Of a stretch of 58,719 bases of DNA, positions 26,738 to 45,585 are shown one piece after another. Both the position numbers and the translations under genes were made by a program. The DNA is from Monosiga brevicollis MX1 (lineage: Eukaryota; Opisthokonta; Choanoflagellata; Craspedida; Salpingoecidae): contig NW_001865075.1 in NCBI RefSeq assembly GCF_000002865.3, forward strand, positions 107,611 to 166,329, read 5' to 3'. Under the pieces are notes generated by a model. The model ran no database searches. It was not told the DNA's origin and worked only from the letters and a program-made list of their open reading frames with translations. Numbering within the stretch: position 1 is the first letter of the stretch; each line of letters opens with the position of its first letter.

Positions 26738-31371
<4,634 letters not shown>

Positions 31372-36848: not shown

Positions 36849-39431
36849 ATGGATGTTGAAGCCGACGGGGGCAAGAACGTGACGAGCGTTCATCACAGTT
36901 CCGTGGACCCCACTCAGTTCCCACTTCTTCTGCAACAGGTGAGCCGATACCTGCTCTTTGAGGCGCTGTCGTGGCGTGGCAGTTCCACCCTGCCTCTCAT
37001 TCATTCTGATGGAAACCCCAACAGTATTACCTGCGACTTTTCCCATACGGCAAATACTTCAAATGGCTTTCGTATGGCGGCGTGGACAAGAAGGAGTTTG
37101 AAAATCGCGAGTTCTCCTTCACCCTCAAGGATGATGTCTACGTGCGCTACCAGAGTTTTGCCGACATGTCCGAACTCAAAGAAGGTCGGGTCGTGCTGAT
37201 TTCCACCCTTGCGGGCATTGTGCCTGAACAAGAAAAGGTGCCTTTACTCGATCGCCAATCTCAAGGTGTCTCCCAACCTGTCTTGCCGCTATTGTAGCCA
37301 TTATCAAGCGGTGCCCATACAAGATTGACATTGGTGCCATCTTCACAGCTCGGGTACCAGCTCTTTTCGCCTCCGCTCGTTCGATTTTTTTTTTCCAATT
37401 TTTAAAAGTTGATTGCTCGAGTCGCATTGCTGACCAGCAACTCGACCCCGTTTCCTCCGCTTTGCTTTGTAGCCCAAAGACCACAAAAAGATCAAGAGCA
37501 GTGAATTTTACCCCGTGGCCAAAGAACTGGTTTTCGATATCGATATGACCGATTACGACGAAATTCGCACCTGCTGCAGGTGGGACCTGTTGTTGACATC
37601 TCACGCAGCCTGCCCGCATTTCTTTTGGCCTTGCTTGACTCGCACACCGATATGTCTCGTGTAGTGGCGCGGCCATCTGCCACAAATGTTGGGGCTTCAT
37701 GACTGCAGCCGTCAAAGTGCTGGATGCGGCGCTGCGCGAGGACTTTGGCTTTCAGCATCTGCTTTGGGTGTACTCCGGTCGCCGTGGTATCCATTGCTGG
37801 GTTTGTGATAAGAGGGCACGACTTCTTTCGCAAGAGGCTCGCGGAGCCGTTGCTGAGTATCTGCAGCTTGTTCGCGTACGTCTGCCTTTGTGCTGCTTGT
37901 GGTCCAGCCATCAGCACCGCCAGTGCCAGCCTTGCACCATGAACGGGGCACCCCTCATGTGGTTTTGTGTTGCAGGGTGGCGATCAAACGGCCAAAAAGG
38001 TGTCCCTGACGAGTCCTTTGCACCCGTGTGCAGAACGGGCGTGCAGAATTCTCGAGCCTTACTTCCGTGAGGTTGTGCTCTCCTCCGACTCGCAGGTCCG
38101 GCAAGCTGTTTCCTTGCACCCCATTCCCCGGCAACTGCATCTGTTTGTTGATGCTCGTATGAGCGTCAAGCTCACGTGCCTTGGTTCGGCATCATCTGCT
38201 CAGGCGTTGCTGGCCCACAGCGAGCATTGCAACACCATGCTTAGTATACTCGGCATGGACGCGATCGAAGCCGACATCAAAGTAAATCGCAGCGTCACCA
38301 TGTCTTTTGAGCCAAGTTCGTTGCAGCTCATCGTCCGGTGCCGCTGCACTACAGGCTGCCTGGGCTCAGAATGGGCGCAGCGAAGACAAGTGGGAACAAC
38401 TGATTTCAATCGTGAAGGTGCGCGCGCAAGTTTGGATCTGGTGCATATGTTCTTGCGCATTCAACTCACACACTCTTGTCCACGTTTTTCTCTGAAACAC
38501 TCAGGGCCAAAAGTCCAAGAAGGTGTCACGAACGCAAGAACTCATGCTGCAGTACATCTACCCACGGCTGGACATCAATGTATCCAAGGGTGTAAGTCCC
38601 AAGCCATCTCTTCCTCGCGGCTGCATCTGTCATCTCCGAACGTGACAAGTCCATTTAGGGGGTTTTGTTTCCTTGATCCGATCACGCCCAACCTTTCTGG
38701 TCATCTGCTGATTTCTCTGTCAACTCATCTTGGGATGGTATCGAACCCGCAATCCGCTTTTTTGGGTGGCCCGTGACAAAACAGCTCAATCACTTGCTCA
38801 AGTCACCCTTTGTGGTACATCCAAAGACGGGACGTGTGTGCGTGCCCATTGACCCCAGCAAGGCCGATGAGTTTGATCCTTTCGCGGTCCCCACCATTGA
38901 TCGTCTGTGTCGGTATGTTCTGCAGGTCCACATGTCGCATATGCATCACGGCAAATCTGGCCCTGCGCACTCATGCACGCGCTGACTCTTGCAACCTTTA
39001 GCGAACTGGACGAGTTTGAAGAAGAGCAACAGCTCAATGCATACACAGAAGCGGGCGAGCCCTCGCCAAAGCGCAAGATTCAAAGTACGCCTACTTCGGA
39101 GTTTTGTCAACAATGATTCACGTCCATGTTTCTGCTTTCTGGCTCAACTCGACCCGCTCTGTGCTTCACCTGCCGCAGACTTTAACAAAACATCGTTGTC
39201 CGGTGCCATGAAGATTTTTACCGACTTTCTGCAAGGTCTTGATGAGGAAAACGCTGAGCTTGCCGAAGGTGCGCCCTTGTCGCCACTTTTTTTCCTGCTG
39301 AACTACACTTGTCTCCCCCTTTTACCTTCAGGCTTTCGGTCTTGTGCATCATTTCGTACGGCTGCCCTTACTGTGTTCTGCTTCTTCTGTGAATAGATGC
39401 TGGTGTCAAATCCGAGGCCATGGAGTGGTAG
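36849..39431 (+). CDS. PRIM1: DNA primase small (catalytic) subunit
   Basis: Makes the RNA primer for DNA polymerase alpha at replication origins and Okazaki fragments. Exon 1 is 36849-36938 ([20 protein letters not shown]); exon 2 starts at 37025 and reads [19 protein letters not shown] and [18 protein letters not shown]. Later exons give [13 protein letters not shown], then the catalytic metal-binding motif [17 protein letters not shown], then ICHKCW completing the zinc site, [37 protein letters not shown], and [20 protein letters not shown] with [19 protein letters not shown]. The last exon ends [11 protein letters not shown] with TAG at 39429-39431. All active-site motifs of the archaeal/eukaryotic primase family are intact. 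Borders of the middle exons (38.0-38.6 kb) were not fully settled. It converges on the STT3-like gene. Confidence 0.94.
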
Positions 39432-39610
39432 GCCGCAATCAAGTTCGGCCTCCAGCTTTGCGTCGTGTGAAGCAGTTGTGCGTTACCCTTTGCCAAGAGG
39501 TCGTTCAGGGCCTTCATGGGTGCAACAATCATCTTTTTTCGCACTTGCTATTACGTGTCTCCAAATCGACGGGTCAATTGATATGTGAATTATAGTGGAC
39601 AGCAAAAAGC

Positions 39611-42600
39611 CTATGCTTGAAGAAAGCGCAGATCGCGGTTGGTTGCTGGCAGCACGCGATATATCCGCACCAGCCAGTTTGAGCTCGTAAAGACATGCTC
39701 CAACTCCTCCAGCTCAGTAAATTTGTGACCAATCTCCGCCCGGCGTGCCCGATCGTAACCTCGACCCTTGCCTGCAATGCGGCATCCGAAGATGAGCGAT
39801 GAGAAAGAACATCTACATGTCCACCCCATTGCGCAATGCCACGCACCTAATTTAGTCTGATGGAAGGCAAAGTCATGATAGGATAGTTTGTAGAGCAAAC
39901 TCTCAGCCAGTCGTTCGGGCGCCGCTGTTGTGACCCGAAACGTCCCGGCCTTGGTCAAAAAGTCACCCACTGATATGGAATCATCAACATGAGCTGCAAG
40001 GCGAACCATGGTGGTAAGCTGCCCAATATCATCGGCAGTCAGACCAATGGCACCACCAAATTTGACGGCGATGTAATCCACACCCAGCTTGCGCAGCTCA
40101 TGCACGGCTTCCTGCTCTGTCAAGGTCCATAGCTGTCCAGCAGGCAGAGAAAAGAAAAATAAATGCCAGTAAAAGCATTGCATGCGGAGTGAGATTACTG
40201 GAAGCGATCACCAACGAGGTTAAGGGAGTGAGAGCATCGCCAGCCTGGAACTTACACGAGCAGCATGAGCCAGAGCGCTGCCATTCGTGGACTGGCCAGA
40301 GCCAGGCTCGGCGGCGGACAAGGTTGTGTGGGCAGTCAAGACGGGACCGAGGTCACGCCACGCCAGGACCTATTCGATGCAAAAATGTTGCAGCCACCGA
40401 TGAGCCTTGAATGCAACCCACGGGTTACGGTGAGGGAACTCGCAGTGGTGGCAGATGAATAGACCTTGGAATCGGGGGGCAGATGCTGATGCACAAAGTC
40501 AACAGCTTCCTCAACATCCCAATAGATGAGACGGGTCTCATTTTGCAGCGTGACGCTAGGGAAAAGGTCGCTGCCTGCATATGTTGTAGTAGCAGTCCAG
40601 TAGGCGTGACGAATGAAGAGCACCCCCAGAACCACGAGAGCAGCTGAGGTCAAGAATCCGCGCTATTGGAGCCATGGCAGTCAAAAGCAGGGCGCGCATG
40701 CACAGAGATATAATGAAAATTGCGCCAAGAGAAAGGGCACTGCGACGCAGCAAGGCTACACACCAGCAGATCGGCATCACCGCGAGCCGTGCGCATGTCC
40801 TTGTTCTTCTTCTCTTTTTTTGAATCCTTTTTTTGGCGCCGAGCAGCTTCGAGATGGGCTCGTGTACCGCGGTCCACGGATTCCGCCCCCGCCACAATCA
40901 GCGCAGCGCAAACCCCTGCAGCCAGAAGCGAGGCAAACAACCCCACTAGAGGGATGTGCATCCGAGCCCGTCCGGCCATCCAGAGACTAGAATCGCTCGC
41001 GCAAAAAGTTTGGCAACAGCATCAGACAAACATGGGGGCCAAGTGCAAGGGAACCGCCCGAACGCTTTGTAGCTACGGCGTAGCAAACCGACCTGATGAG
41101 GTAGCCTAGAGCAAGCATCCGCGCGCCCACAGGATCACACGGCAACTTTGGCAGCATGTTCAGCCAGAGCACGTCAGCGACTCCGACCAGCGCAACCATG
41201 TTGAGCGCGTGCAAGTCGAGAAACAAGCTGGCCCAGGAGGGCGGCAAGGCATCTGCCATTGGAGCCTCAACGGTCAGCGACCCTGTATTCCACCAGGTGT
41301 TGGCATTGCCAGAGCCCGCATGCGCAAAGGGCACGATTGAGGTGACGGGGTCGAGGTGTAAGAGCTCAAGCAGCAGCAACAGCGCAGGGAGCCATAGGCC
41401 ATAGCGCAGATGGTTGGCCCATCGGGCCAACATGACGGGCCCAGAGTCGGCCGTGGCAGACTGTGTGGCCACGTGCAGAACAAGGACTGCAAGCCATAGC
41501 AGGGAGAGCAAGGAAAGGAACCGATCCCAAAGCAAGACCAAGGTGAGATCAATCTGCAAGCTAACAGTAGGCAAAGAATTGCCAACAGAAACAAACAGCC
41601 TGGAACGCACCGTTGGACAGGAGCAGAAGGAACAGAGACGGGAGGCGCAAAGACGGGGTAGAACTGACAGCATCCCCCAATAGTGCTGCGGCGGTCAGCT
41701 GGTTTAAAAAAAAAAAAGAGGCCGGACGAAAAGGTGTGAGCGTAAGCCATGATCTCGATGGCATTGTACAAGGCTCTGACCACTGGCATATATTTGCGGC
41801 CGGGTCAACGGACCAAAAAGTGGCGACTCAGGCTAAAGTTTTGCAGTTTGGTATGGGTCGGGACAAAAGCCAGTGCCAAGGGCGGGATTAGCAAGAGGCA
41901 GTCTCGGAGCATGGGCACGTGAGGGACCTGATGTTCAGAGTGGGGGAAGTGTCATTCATGAGAAGTGACCTGGACACGACTTTTGGTAGCGCCGGCGGAA
42001 AATCGCGTGCGTCGACGCACCGCGAGAAACACGGTCGCGATGTGCCAGAGCACGTTGCTGTTGAATGTTGAAGTGCGAATGCCCCGCAGCCAGGCAGTCA
42101 AGATGATGGCAAAGCCACACAAGCCCAAAACTGTGGGATGAAGTCGCCCGTAGCTGGTCACCCTACACCAGCCGAAAGCCACGAGACGCGATAAGAGGGA
42201 CACGAGGTCGTGAACCCTGGGCAAACGACGGACAAGGCACAGACTTGAAAATGGCTGGGGTAGTGGCCACTAGGGCGCAGCTCAGGCCCGTTGCGACAAA
42301 GTCCTAATGCACCCAGACAGCGAGAGCAAATGTGGGTGCGGGGTTACACTGCATCTCGCACCCAGGACGACAGGTGACACCCGCCACTCGCAAAGGCACG
42401 CGCACTTTACCAACCTGGCCATATATCGCATGAGCTAGACTGCCCACGGCGACGAGCACAAGGCCAAAGAGTACGATGGGAAGATTTGCAAGGACTTGAA
42501 TCAAGTCAATGGATGACCAGAAGCTCAAGGCCGCGTGCATCATCTGACCGAGAACCGCAAGATCGGCGCTGCCATCGCGCGGGGCGACAGCCATTCCCTC

Positions 42601-42777
42601 GGACGACTGCGCGGCACGCAAAACGACATGCGAAGGCACATCATGCAGCTGAGGCCCATAAACCCACCACGGCATCCATCTCATCAAGAAGGCCACCGCC
42701 ACCACGGCCGCCACTGCACCCCAGAGCGCCCCGGCGTTGGGTCGCGACCTCGCGCCCGCTGACTCGGCGCCCGCCAT
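39611..42777 (-). CDS. STT3-like membrane protein with degenerate catalytic motifs
   Basis: Related along its length to STT3, the catalytic subunit of oligosaccharyltransferase in the ER membrane. The N-terminus (ATG at 42777) has a membrane span and the helix IDLIQVLANLPIVLFGLVLV. Further spans include VLGLCGFAIILTAWLRG and LWLPALLLLLELLHL. The C-terminal lumenal domain is strongly STT3-like: VDYIAVKFGGAIGLTADDIG, GTFRVTTAAPERLAESLLYK, RARRAEIGHKFTELEELEHV and NWLVRIYRV. The key sites differ. HEFDPYFNYR becomes HDVPSHVVLR, SYDNE becomes SYGRL, SVSEHQPTTW becomes PMADALPPSW, and the sequon-reading WWDYGY becomes WRDLGP. Family knowledge says these bind metal, lipid-linked glycan and acceptor. 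I infer a non-catalytic or changed function. It is not a normal pseudogene, since the frame stays open over many exons. Middle exon borders are partly unresolved. Confidence 0.75.
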
Positions 42778-43336
42778 CTGTTCGTGTACGTGTGGAGCAA
42801 ATGCATTACATGTGTGGCGCTTTGACGCTACATCCTTAGCACTTTCATCTCGATCGTGTGAGAACTTTGAATGCTTGGTGTGACTGCTGCCTCAAAGAAG
42901 TTCCGAGAAGAAAAAAACACAAACGTCTGACAATCTGACATTCCGAATAGAATTGTCTGACAATTCTTCTGCTGCTGGTACCTCAAAGGTGAGAGATGGA
43001 GCGGACAAGGTGACGGCAACGCAGAGATACACCAGAAGGCCCTGTATACGTCATGGAAGAAATAGAGGGAGATGCAGAGATTCAAGGCCTGATCTGCTCC
43101 ACAGAAGAGAGTCGTGCTTTTGAGTGTTTGATCGCGCCGAGACGACGACACACGGGGCGTTGTCTGGCATCATGCCGCTCTTTCGGCAGCAGCTTCGGCC
43201 CTGTGCGCATGCTGCGCATGGCAAGGGTGCTCATACCTTTTACCTCATCTCTGACCTTTATGGCCAACCAGGTAGTCGCGTGGCTTGCCCTGCCCCCAAG
43301 CCCGTGTTCATCCACGAGTGGACACCACCCTCAATC
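42778..43336. other. Divergent spacer between the STT3-like and TIR genes
   Basis: About 560 bases between the STT3-like start and my chosen TIR gene start. An earlier in-frame ATG near 43172 could extend the TIR protein into this stretch. No other gene is seen. Confidence 0.4.
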
Positions 43337-45585
43337 ATGGCGGTCATTCGTTCTGCGTGCATCCTCATTCCTTTAGAGGAGCAGTCGTTGTTGGTTCCGC
43401 TGGCAGAGCAACTGGAAGCTCGCTCCTACGGCGAGGCGTTGAAGTTGCAAATGCGGCAGGTCAGGTCCTGGCCGCCCGCTGTGCACAGGCAAGATCACAG
43501 TCAACATCGCGTCCCTCATCTTGCGGCTTGCGGCTCGCGGCAGGGCAAGGGTGGCCCACAGCGCGTCCACATCAAGACGTTGTGCCAGCCAGGATTGGTC
43601 ACGGCCATCGGCCCATTGGACGAGCAGCTCTTGGACCAGTGTCTTTTCAGCCTTGAACACCTGGCCAGCGCACCCGTGGTTTGTCTACATTCTCGCCATC
43701 CTGAGCTTTCCTGCCGAGAGCAAGCGACCTCCCGCCGACCAAAGTGTTCCTTGCATTGCCTGGCCCCTGTGCGCACCTCATGGGCTCGCTCGCCAGATTG
43801 TCATTGTCTTGAGCCATGTCGGCTTTGCAGCGCTGCAGTCAGCCCATCTAGAGCCCAGTCCGCTGGCGGCCGAGCTGGCGCTTGCCGTCCAGCTCTTTCG
43901 GGACAAGGTTGGTCCGCTGTTGTAGGAGCAGCCAACGACCACCTCCATTCCACGCACTGCCTCACCATCAGACCGGAACAAACTCTATTTTAGGCGGCAC
44001 TGTTGTTGCCATTTTCAGTTGCGCTAGATTCGTCAGAGATACCCCCTCTTCCCTCCGACTTTGTGTACAGCGAGGACTGCACCCCACTTGAGGGGGTGCA
44101 GCTCGGGGTGCTGGAAACCATGAGCGAGTTTCAACAAGTGCTCTTCGATCGCAAGTGTGGAGTCCTGACTGACCGCCCCTCATCCTCCACAGCGGACGAT
44201 GCCCCCAAACAAGATGATCGTGCCGAAGCCATTGCCACTGAAGTGGAGCGCGTTGTGCGCAAGATGCATGCGCAGTTGCGCGACGTGGGCGTCAAGGCCC
44301 ACCAACAGATTCTGAAGCGTTTACGGCGCGTCAAGCGTGGCATACGCCCGCGCACTTTTATCAACTACCTCCCCTCTTTGGACCCCTCTTTCAAGTGCAA
44401 GAGCCGGGCTCGGCTGCATCACGACTTTTTCCTCTCCTATCGGCAACAAGCCCATGGTTAGTCTTGACTGGGACCAGCGACAAGCACGCCTGGTTGCTCT
44501 TGTTTTTGCCGTGTGTACACGTTGCCCGCTTTTTCACCGCGAAGCGAGGGCCCGCGATCCATAGGTGACTTTGCGCCCGAGGTAGCAGCTTGCATCGATA
44601 ATATGCGACGGGACGATGGCGTGCTCAAGGGGGATTTTCATTGTTTCCTCGATCAGCGATGCTTGGAGACGGGCCAGCCCTGGCGCAGCGGCTTTCTCAA
44701 TGTGATTCGCGCCTGTAACATTGTATGTGGATTGCCTGTGCCAATCGGCATTGTTGCTTCTCCCGAGTTTTGGAACTTGAGGTTCTATGTTTGAGCCCAG
44801 CAGACAACGGCTCAACTCCTTGCCTATCACCTTAGATTGCTATTTTGGTGTCGCCGTTGACCCTGGATCGGATGCGCACGGCCGATGAGTTTACCGACAA
44901 CGTGCTGCTGGAGTGGGAAACGGCGCTTGATATGCTGGGCAACAAGTTGTGTAAGCTGATGGTCTTTTGCCTCGACGACCCGGGACGGCCTTTTATAATG
45001 CCCGCCTTTGACGCCTTTCCCGATCAGCCCACCCCACTGCCCGACGACCTTGTCATGAAAGGAGACAGGCATAGTGTCGTGCCCCGCCGCACCATCCGCC
45101 AGGTGGTGCGGGGCGTGTTGTCCGTTGCCCAGCGTCACGTTGTCCGCCCGGACCCCGCCAGCGACATGCCACAAGTGGAGGCGGCAGCATTGGCGGCGCC
45201 CGCGGATACCCAACCGACGACGCTGGACCGCAAGCGCACCGAGTTGCGGCGATATACCCAGACCGACAAGGCGGCGCATGACATTGCCTCACTCATGTAT
45301 GAACAGTTTCAGACACACTATGCCACCACGGCCCATCTCAAGGCCATGACGTCGGCCTTTGAACAAGTCTGGGATGGGGCGCGCGAGGCTGCCCGGCAAA
45401 GCTTGGAGGCCATGGTTGATGCCTCCACGCGAGGCACAAATGTTGTTCAGCAAGTCAAAACAAAGGCCTCCAACCTGGCACGGGGCCTGGCTCGTCCTCA
45501 CCCCTCACGCGGGTCGCAAGGCGATAGTGTGACTGCAGCTGCCGCCGATCCTTCCGTGACAGATACCACAGCAGCCACAGAATAG
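43337..45585 (+). CDS. TIR-domain protein with SARM1-like catalytic glutamate
   Basis: The first exon, 43337-43459, reads MAVIRSACILIPLEEQSLLV; the start is tentative because an in-frame ATG near 43172 is also possible. A second region, about 43490-43912, is open in one frame (ARQIVIVLSHVGFAALQ), but its borders are uncertain. Well-supported exons follow: from about 43994 (AALLLPFSVALDSSEIPPL) to 44458, from about 44564 to 44720, and 44836-45585. Across these lies a TIR domain: FFLSYRQQAHG, then DFAPEVAACIDN, FHCFLDQRCLETGQPWRSGF, IAILVSPLTLDRMRTADEF and DNVLLEWETALD. The glutamate in LLEWETAL lines up with the catalytic Glu of SARM1 (HKEIVTAL), so NAD-cleaving activity is possible. The 200-residue tail is helical with an Ala/Thr-rich end. 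The partner and pathway are unknown. Confidence 0.75.

Follow-up and report, generated by a model that had tools for sequence, protein, structure and literature searches.

The window analysed here, a stretch of 58,719 nucleotides from Monosiga brevicollis MX1, carries on its minus strand a gene related to STT3, a secretory-pathway enzyme that is highly conserved. The gene begins with an ATG at 42777 and its stop codon ends at 39611, as the first-pass annotation of this DNA had placed it, and its 11 exons, separated by GT-AG introns of 75–123 bases, encode a product of about 716 amino acids in which two middle exons are uncertain. The exons and the neighbouring genes are as follows.

Exon 1, 42415..42777, minus strand: start ATG at 42777, carries HDVPSHVVLR; open frame with donor GTTGGTAA; alone, no significant homology to STT3
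Exon 2, 42245..42303, minus strand: GT-AG, in phase
Exon 3, 42021..42162, minus strand: carries SYGRL; GT-AG, in phase
Exon 4, 41814..41927, minus strand: from an enumeration of stop-free structures; its 3' end is one among several open options
Exon 5, 41669..41698, minus strand: uncertain; from the same enumeration of stop-free structures
Exon 6, 41093..41553, minus strand: EL5 region, SVSEHQPTTW changed to PMADALPPSW; the profile match to STT3 starts here, at residue 329
Exon 7, 40764..40986, minus strand: within the profile match to STT3
Exon 8, 40465..40662, minus strand: final hydrophobic segment and beginning of the lumenal domain
Exon 9, 40256..40369, minus strand: WWDYGY changed to WRDLGP; sequon NGS at the column of the second NNTWNNT sequon
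Exon 10, 39847..40132, minus strand: DK motif DDINKFLWM changed to DDIGQLTTM
Exon 11, 39611..39771, minus strand: best conserved piece (GYDRARRAEIGHKF...NWLVRIYRV) and the stop; 59% identical to residues 627–675 of the relative P0004
DNA primase small subunit, 37639..38067, plus strand: PF01896 at 97.3 bits in the first ORF; by our own reading of further exons the gene probably extends to about 39430, which would place it and the STT3-like gene tail to tail
Two long ORFs, 27407..31368, plus strand: both with SH2 domains, the second also holding the end of a tyrosine phosphatase domain

The six 3' exons of the STT3-like gene join in frame. In the middle of the gene the splice sites are ambiguous: between 41927 and 41553 there are 471 possible stop-free structures with one to three introns, and exons 4 and 5 as chosen rank fourth on splice score (among structures with two or three introns) and are not the best on alignment score.

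Homology to STT3 differs sharply along the protein. With hhalign, the 716-residue product matched a five-STT3 alignment (A2, with P0004 first) over residues 329–711 at a probability of 100 and an E-value of 2.1e-39, and with phmmer an earlier version of 701 residues matched human STT3A and STT3B (E about 3e-37; 131.8 bits for STT3A), yeast Stt3 (7e-30; 107.2 bits) and 6s7o_A (2.6e-37). Judged by its sequence, the C-terminal half of about 380 residues is certainly an STT3 homologue, and the kinship claimed by the first-pass annotation is unmistakable for exons 6–11. Residues 1–236 gave no significant STT3 match (hhalign probability 4%); Pfam had no match to the protein at E ≤ 1, so that the N-terminal membrane domain PF02516 was not recognised, and a genome search with PF02516 overlooked the gene. 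NCBIfam returned two sub-cut-off matches only, both meaningless, and a protein search using a two-sequence alignment of the STT3-like protein and P0004 yielded nothing at E ≤ 0.001. The hydrophobic segments resemble those of STT3 in hydropathy, and the N-terminal half would count as STT3-like by position and hydropathy only; the earlier statement that helix order follows STT3 thus finds no profile match behind it over residues 1–236. This missing match, together with the 471 possible structures, would suit a gene-model artefact in which exons 1–5 are foreign and the real product comprises the C-terminal STT3 domain, perhaps lacking the catalytic membrane part. We consider such an artefact quite improbable, as exons 1–3 keep their phase across GT-AG introns and show hydrophobicity at the places where STT3 does, and as P0004 carries the same changes in milder form.

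P0004 is one of eight proteins found with the C-terminal part as query (scoring was limited to the 7996 candidates with the most words in common). It is a EukProt transcript (m.128857) with a complete frame of 679 amino acids, presumably from a choanoflagellate to judge from the format of its name, and is 29% identical to the STT3-like protein. It reads NDVEPYFNLR, NFLGE and SLSEQQPTAW at three of the motifs, with WWDYG and the DK motif intact, and is thus a transcribed relative that is degenerate in part. Trees were built from 57 of 128 proteins, of our choosing, plus the STT3-like protein and a second STT3 of this genome (59 rows). In the C-terminal trees the STT3-like protein takes its place among the opisthokont-type rows at 100/100, whether or not P0004 is included; a tree with canonical STT3s had been called for at first pass, and here it groups the protein with the type of human, yeast-like and other opisthokont STT3s. 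Its branch is very long, at 4–10 changes per column. It clusters with P0004 at 99/98 in the full-length tree, in which each of the two sits on a long branch and the join may be false, and at 97/79 in the C-terminal tree; when it is left out, P0004 joins P0001 at 90/84.

Three changes in the active-site motifs are secure: WWDYGY to WRDLGP and SVSEHQPTTW to PMADALPPSW, both read correctly at first pass, and DDINKFLWM to DDIGQLTTM. The second Trp of WWDYGY has become Arg and its two Tyr have become Leu and Pro, the Lys of the DK motif is Gln, and the Glu of EL5 is Asp. WWDYG is otherwise present in 57 of the 59 alignment rows, the exceptions being the STT3-like protein (WRDLG) and the fragment P0091 (526 aa). 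WWD keeps its Asp, the DK motif its Asp and Met, and EL5 an acid, and the earlier claim that every known motif was lost is therefore overstated. Less secure are the readings of HEFDPYFNYR as HDVPSHVVLR and of SYDNE as SYGRL, which the first pass had treated as given: they fall in the part with no significant match, and one MAFFT alignment sets the DNE column at HPT. Both equivalences are plausible and rest on collinearity and on P0004. A retained Arg for binding the lipid-linked oligosaccharide (yeast R404) was considered and dropped; reading by hand keeps it, but the MAFFT alignment does not.

Six motif patterns were sought in all three minus-strand frames of 38900–44000 and not one was intact, so alternative exons restoring the motifs are not possible within that interval. 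Counterparts of yeast D47 and D166/E168 were not found in the alignments, in which the columns concerned are uncertain, or in the same frames. In yeast Stt3, D47 and D166/E168 serve the acceptor Asn and the metal, WWD and K586 the +2 Ser/Thr, and Y521 binds the first GlcNAc (PMC7226087); human STT3A carrying W526A/D527A is inactive (PMC5516256). From the broken WWDYGY and DK motifs and the known roles of their residues, we conclude that the STT3-like protein should lack ordinary oligosaccharyltransferase activity. A glycosyltransferase that has diverged yet still works, through a new active site or on a new substrate (another acceptor or lipid donor), would agree with the STT3-like hydrophobic segments and with the WWD Asp, DK Asp and EL5 acid still in place. 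The substitutions in WWDYGY and of the DK Lys, the part played by Y521 in yeast and the fact that the N-terminal motifs are nowhere intact nearby nevertheless make this very doubtful in our judgement.

If the protein is not an ordinary enzyme, is it retained at all? Conservation was measured against seven opisthokont-type STT3s (P0001–P0003 and P0005–P0008), a label that draws on their matches to human and yeast and on sequence. Of the columns invariant among these seven, the STT3-like protein keeps 11/80, 12/71, 0/4, 23/68 and 17/21 in five successive segments. The last segment, about 100 residues following the DK motif, stands out from the rest (17/21 versus 46/223; Fisher p 4e-8, with segment borders that we chose and columns that are not independent), and P0004 shows a milder contrast in the same test (19/21 versus 125/223, p 0.002). 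A relic in slow decay, an ancestral STT3 made redundant once another STT3 took over and simply not yet broken, would account for the few invariant columns left in the first two segments, for the mid-gene splice ambiguity and for a codon bias weaker than that of the genome's intact STT3 (GC3 0.64 versus 0.79). We think it unlikely. Decay spread evenly along the gene would not have spared the tail, and the well-kept tail therefore speaks for selection; the 11 exons need no stop or frameshift, although 716 random codons with the same composition would be expected to hold 22.6 stops (a guide only, since the exons were chosen open); and the less degenerate P0004 is a complete, transcribed frame. 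The GC content at the three codon positions (0.64/0.46/0.64) shows a spread matched in 0 of 5000 shuffles. The pattern of conservation suggests that selection on the C-terminal lumenal tail keeps the protein, and the first-pass view of a gene retained rather than decaying fits the open exons, the codon-position GC, the conserved tail and the transcribed relative.

The genome also holds an intact STT3, on C48, the one further copy that was detected. Searched against the genome at E ≤ 10, P0004 matched at two loci only, the STT3-like gene and this one. Whereas the STT3-like gene has 11 exons, the C48 gene is one open frame of 746 amino acids from its ATG (L008:3407–5758), flanked by an Exo_endo_phos2 gene and a DUF1674 gene, and its motifs read HEFDPWFNFR, FDNE, SVAEHQ and WWDYG. 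Whether a separate intact STT3 existed had been posed as a question at first pass, where the lack of one would have told against a non-catalytic copy; finding the C48 gene removes that objection. Among the best 120 of 3370 matches (7996 candidates scored), the protein of the cryptophyte Guillardia theta is 55% identical to it; among the same matches, Chrysotila, Pyramimonas, Micromonas, Triparma, Hondaea and Cafeteria are 49–52% identical to it, and the EukProt fragment P0091 is 68% identical. The trees set it apart from the opisthokont type at 100/100, and it is an STT3 of algal/protist type.

The 59-row tree nests the C48 protein near cryptophytes at 97/89. In a 41-row tree, for which we dropped 18 rows, the first group above its pair to gain good support spans 20 rows, and in an AU test on these 41 of the 59 rows a basal place for it is unrejected (p-AU 0.161). 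Because of this tree and this p-value we make no claim of a lateral origin; the gene is perhaps laterally acquired and perhaps an ancient paralog.

Table 1 of PMC4973528, as we read its row for the species, gives M. brevicollis two Stt3 and leaves Ost1, Ost2, Ost3/6, Ost4, Ost5, Wbp1, Swp1, Alg6, Alg8 and Alg10 blank, and the same source records Ost1, Ost2, Ost3/6, Wbp1, Swp1, Alg6, Alg8 and Alg10 for Salpingoeca rosetta. Pfam models run on the genome did not detect Ost1, DAD1 or Alg6/8; these empty answers are weak because ALG3, listed as present in PMC4973528, was missed too. Human DAD1, RPN1, OST48 and MAGT1 queries against the genome were likewise empty at E ≤ 10, and a control query, human Munc18, gave five matches at one locus. 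On C47, two Munc18 exons match PDB 2xhe_A at 57/57 and 46/48 residues, with both mismatches at the ends of a joined piece; 2XHE is the M. brevicollis Munc18 (PMC3693963). The human queries exclude only normally conserved genes, because the OST48 query missed a diverged OST48.

This OST48 (Wbp1) gene, blank in the table of PMC4973528, is strongly diverged and apparently intron-containing and lies at about 310.1–312.3 kb of C36 (L007:3097–5287). The OST48 Pfam model scored 24.8 bits on the genome, below its cut-off and with one stop inside; pieces joined by hand scored 39.5 bits against PF03345 (cut-off 36), over residues 178–249 only, and a PDB search with a 107-residue piece was empty. WBP1 and OST2 form the pocket for the terminal glucoses and correlate in evolution with the longer glycan branch, according to PMC9701220. 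Loss of DAD1 alongside Alg6/8/10 would fit that account, which does not explain why OST48 survives. As DAD1, RPN1 and MAGT1 went undetected, much of the complex for scaffolding may be gone.

We favour, with somewhat better than even confidence, the reading that the gene in the window is an animal/fungal-type STT3 turned pseudoenzyme, most likely kept as a non-catalytic scaffold of the oligosaccharyltransferase (OST) kind. The ancestral STT3 of M. brevicollis would have lost its active site, including, as the alignment suggests, the N-terminal acids that bind Asn and metal; glycan transfer would be done by the intact STT3 on C48; and the STT3-like protein would stay on in the lumen as a scaffold, most likely alongside the diverged OST48, where it would hold nascent chains or other factors of the ER like the old OST complex. 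Because the C48 protein is of the other type and the OST subunits searched for, OST48 apart, went undetected, the likely story is one of an ancestral subunit left behind once catalysis had moved to another STT3, and not of a new regulator as the first pass had suggested.

Several hints bear on such a scaffold. Within the kept tail, about 20 columns of the alignment are missing from seven algal-type rows, the C48 protein among them (the alignment was used here, tail-loop lengths taken by regular expression being unreliable, with algal values of 8 to 45, differing anchors and failures). The NGS sequon falls on the second NNTWNNT sequon in two alignments and is displaced by two residues in another; we take this column to be that of yeast N539, and the C48 protein reads NHE there. 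The N539 glycan is a property of multi-subunit OSTs, set in a groove of Stt3, Wbp1 and Swp1 (PMC8191290), and in human cells MAGT1 expression is still rescued by a dead STT3B (PMC5516256). The tail, the sequon, the dead-STT3B precedent and the surviving OST48 together would favour a non-catalytic complex. A bolder version, that the Monosiga OST has been taken apart, with catalysis passed to the algal-type STT3, most subunits lost, and the ancestral STT3 and OST48 surviving as an ER complex that lacks catalysis but has a function of its own, is one we entertain only tentatively.

If the pseudoenzyme reading is true, the catalytic and structural roles of OST would have been separated in nature, an ancestral copy being kept without its active site beside an intact STT3 of another type, and the case would illustrate the shrinking of a multi-subunit OST in a relative of animals. 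Searches of open-licence PMC literature turned up no report of this degenerate STT3 in M. brevicollis, and the consulted sections of PMC4973528 count two STT3s for the species with no remark on their motifs.

Among known systems, the STT3-like protein is closest in type to STT3A, STT3B and Stt3 (PF02516/PF21436), with which it shares the C-terminal 380 or so residues, including the opisthokont-type tail, and, by hydropathy, a multi-span membrane half. It differs from them in WWDYGY, in the DK Lys and, by alignment, in the lost catalytic and metal-binding acids, and has no Pfam match. The algal/protist-type STT3s (Guillardia, Chrysotila, Pyramimonas, Micromonas, Triparma and the C48 protein) belong to the same family, but the motifs of the C48 protein are intact, the tail of this type is shorter and the sequon is absent at the N539 column. 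P0004 is like the STT3-like protein in its opisthokont type, its complete frame and its altered HEFDP and SYDNE positions; unlike it, P0004 keeps WWDYG, the DK motif and the EL5 Glu intact.
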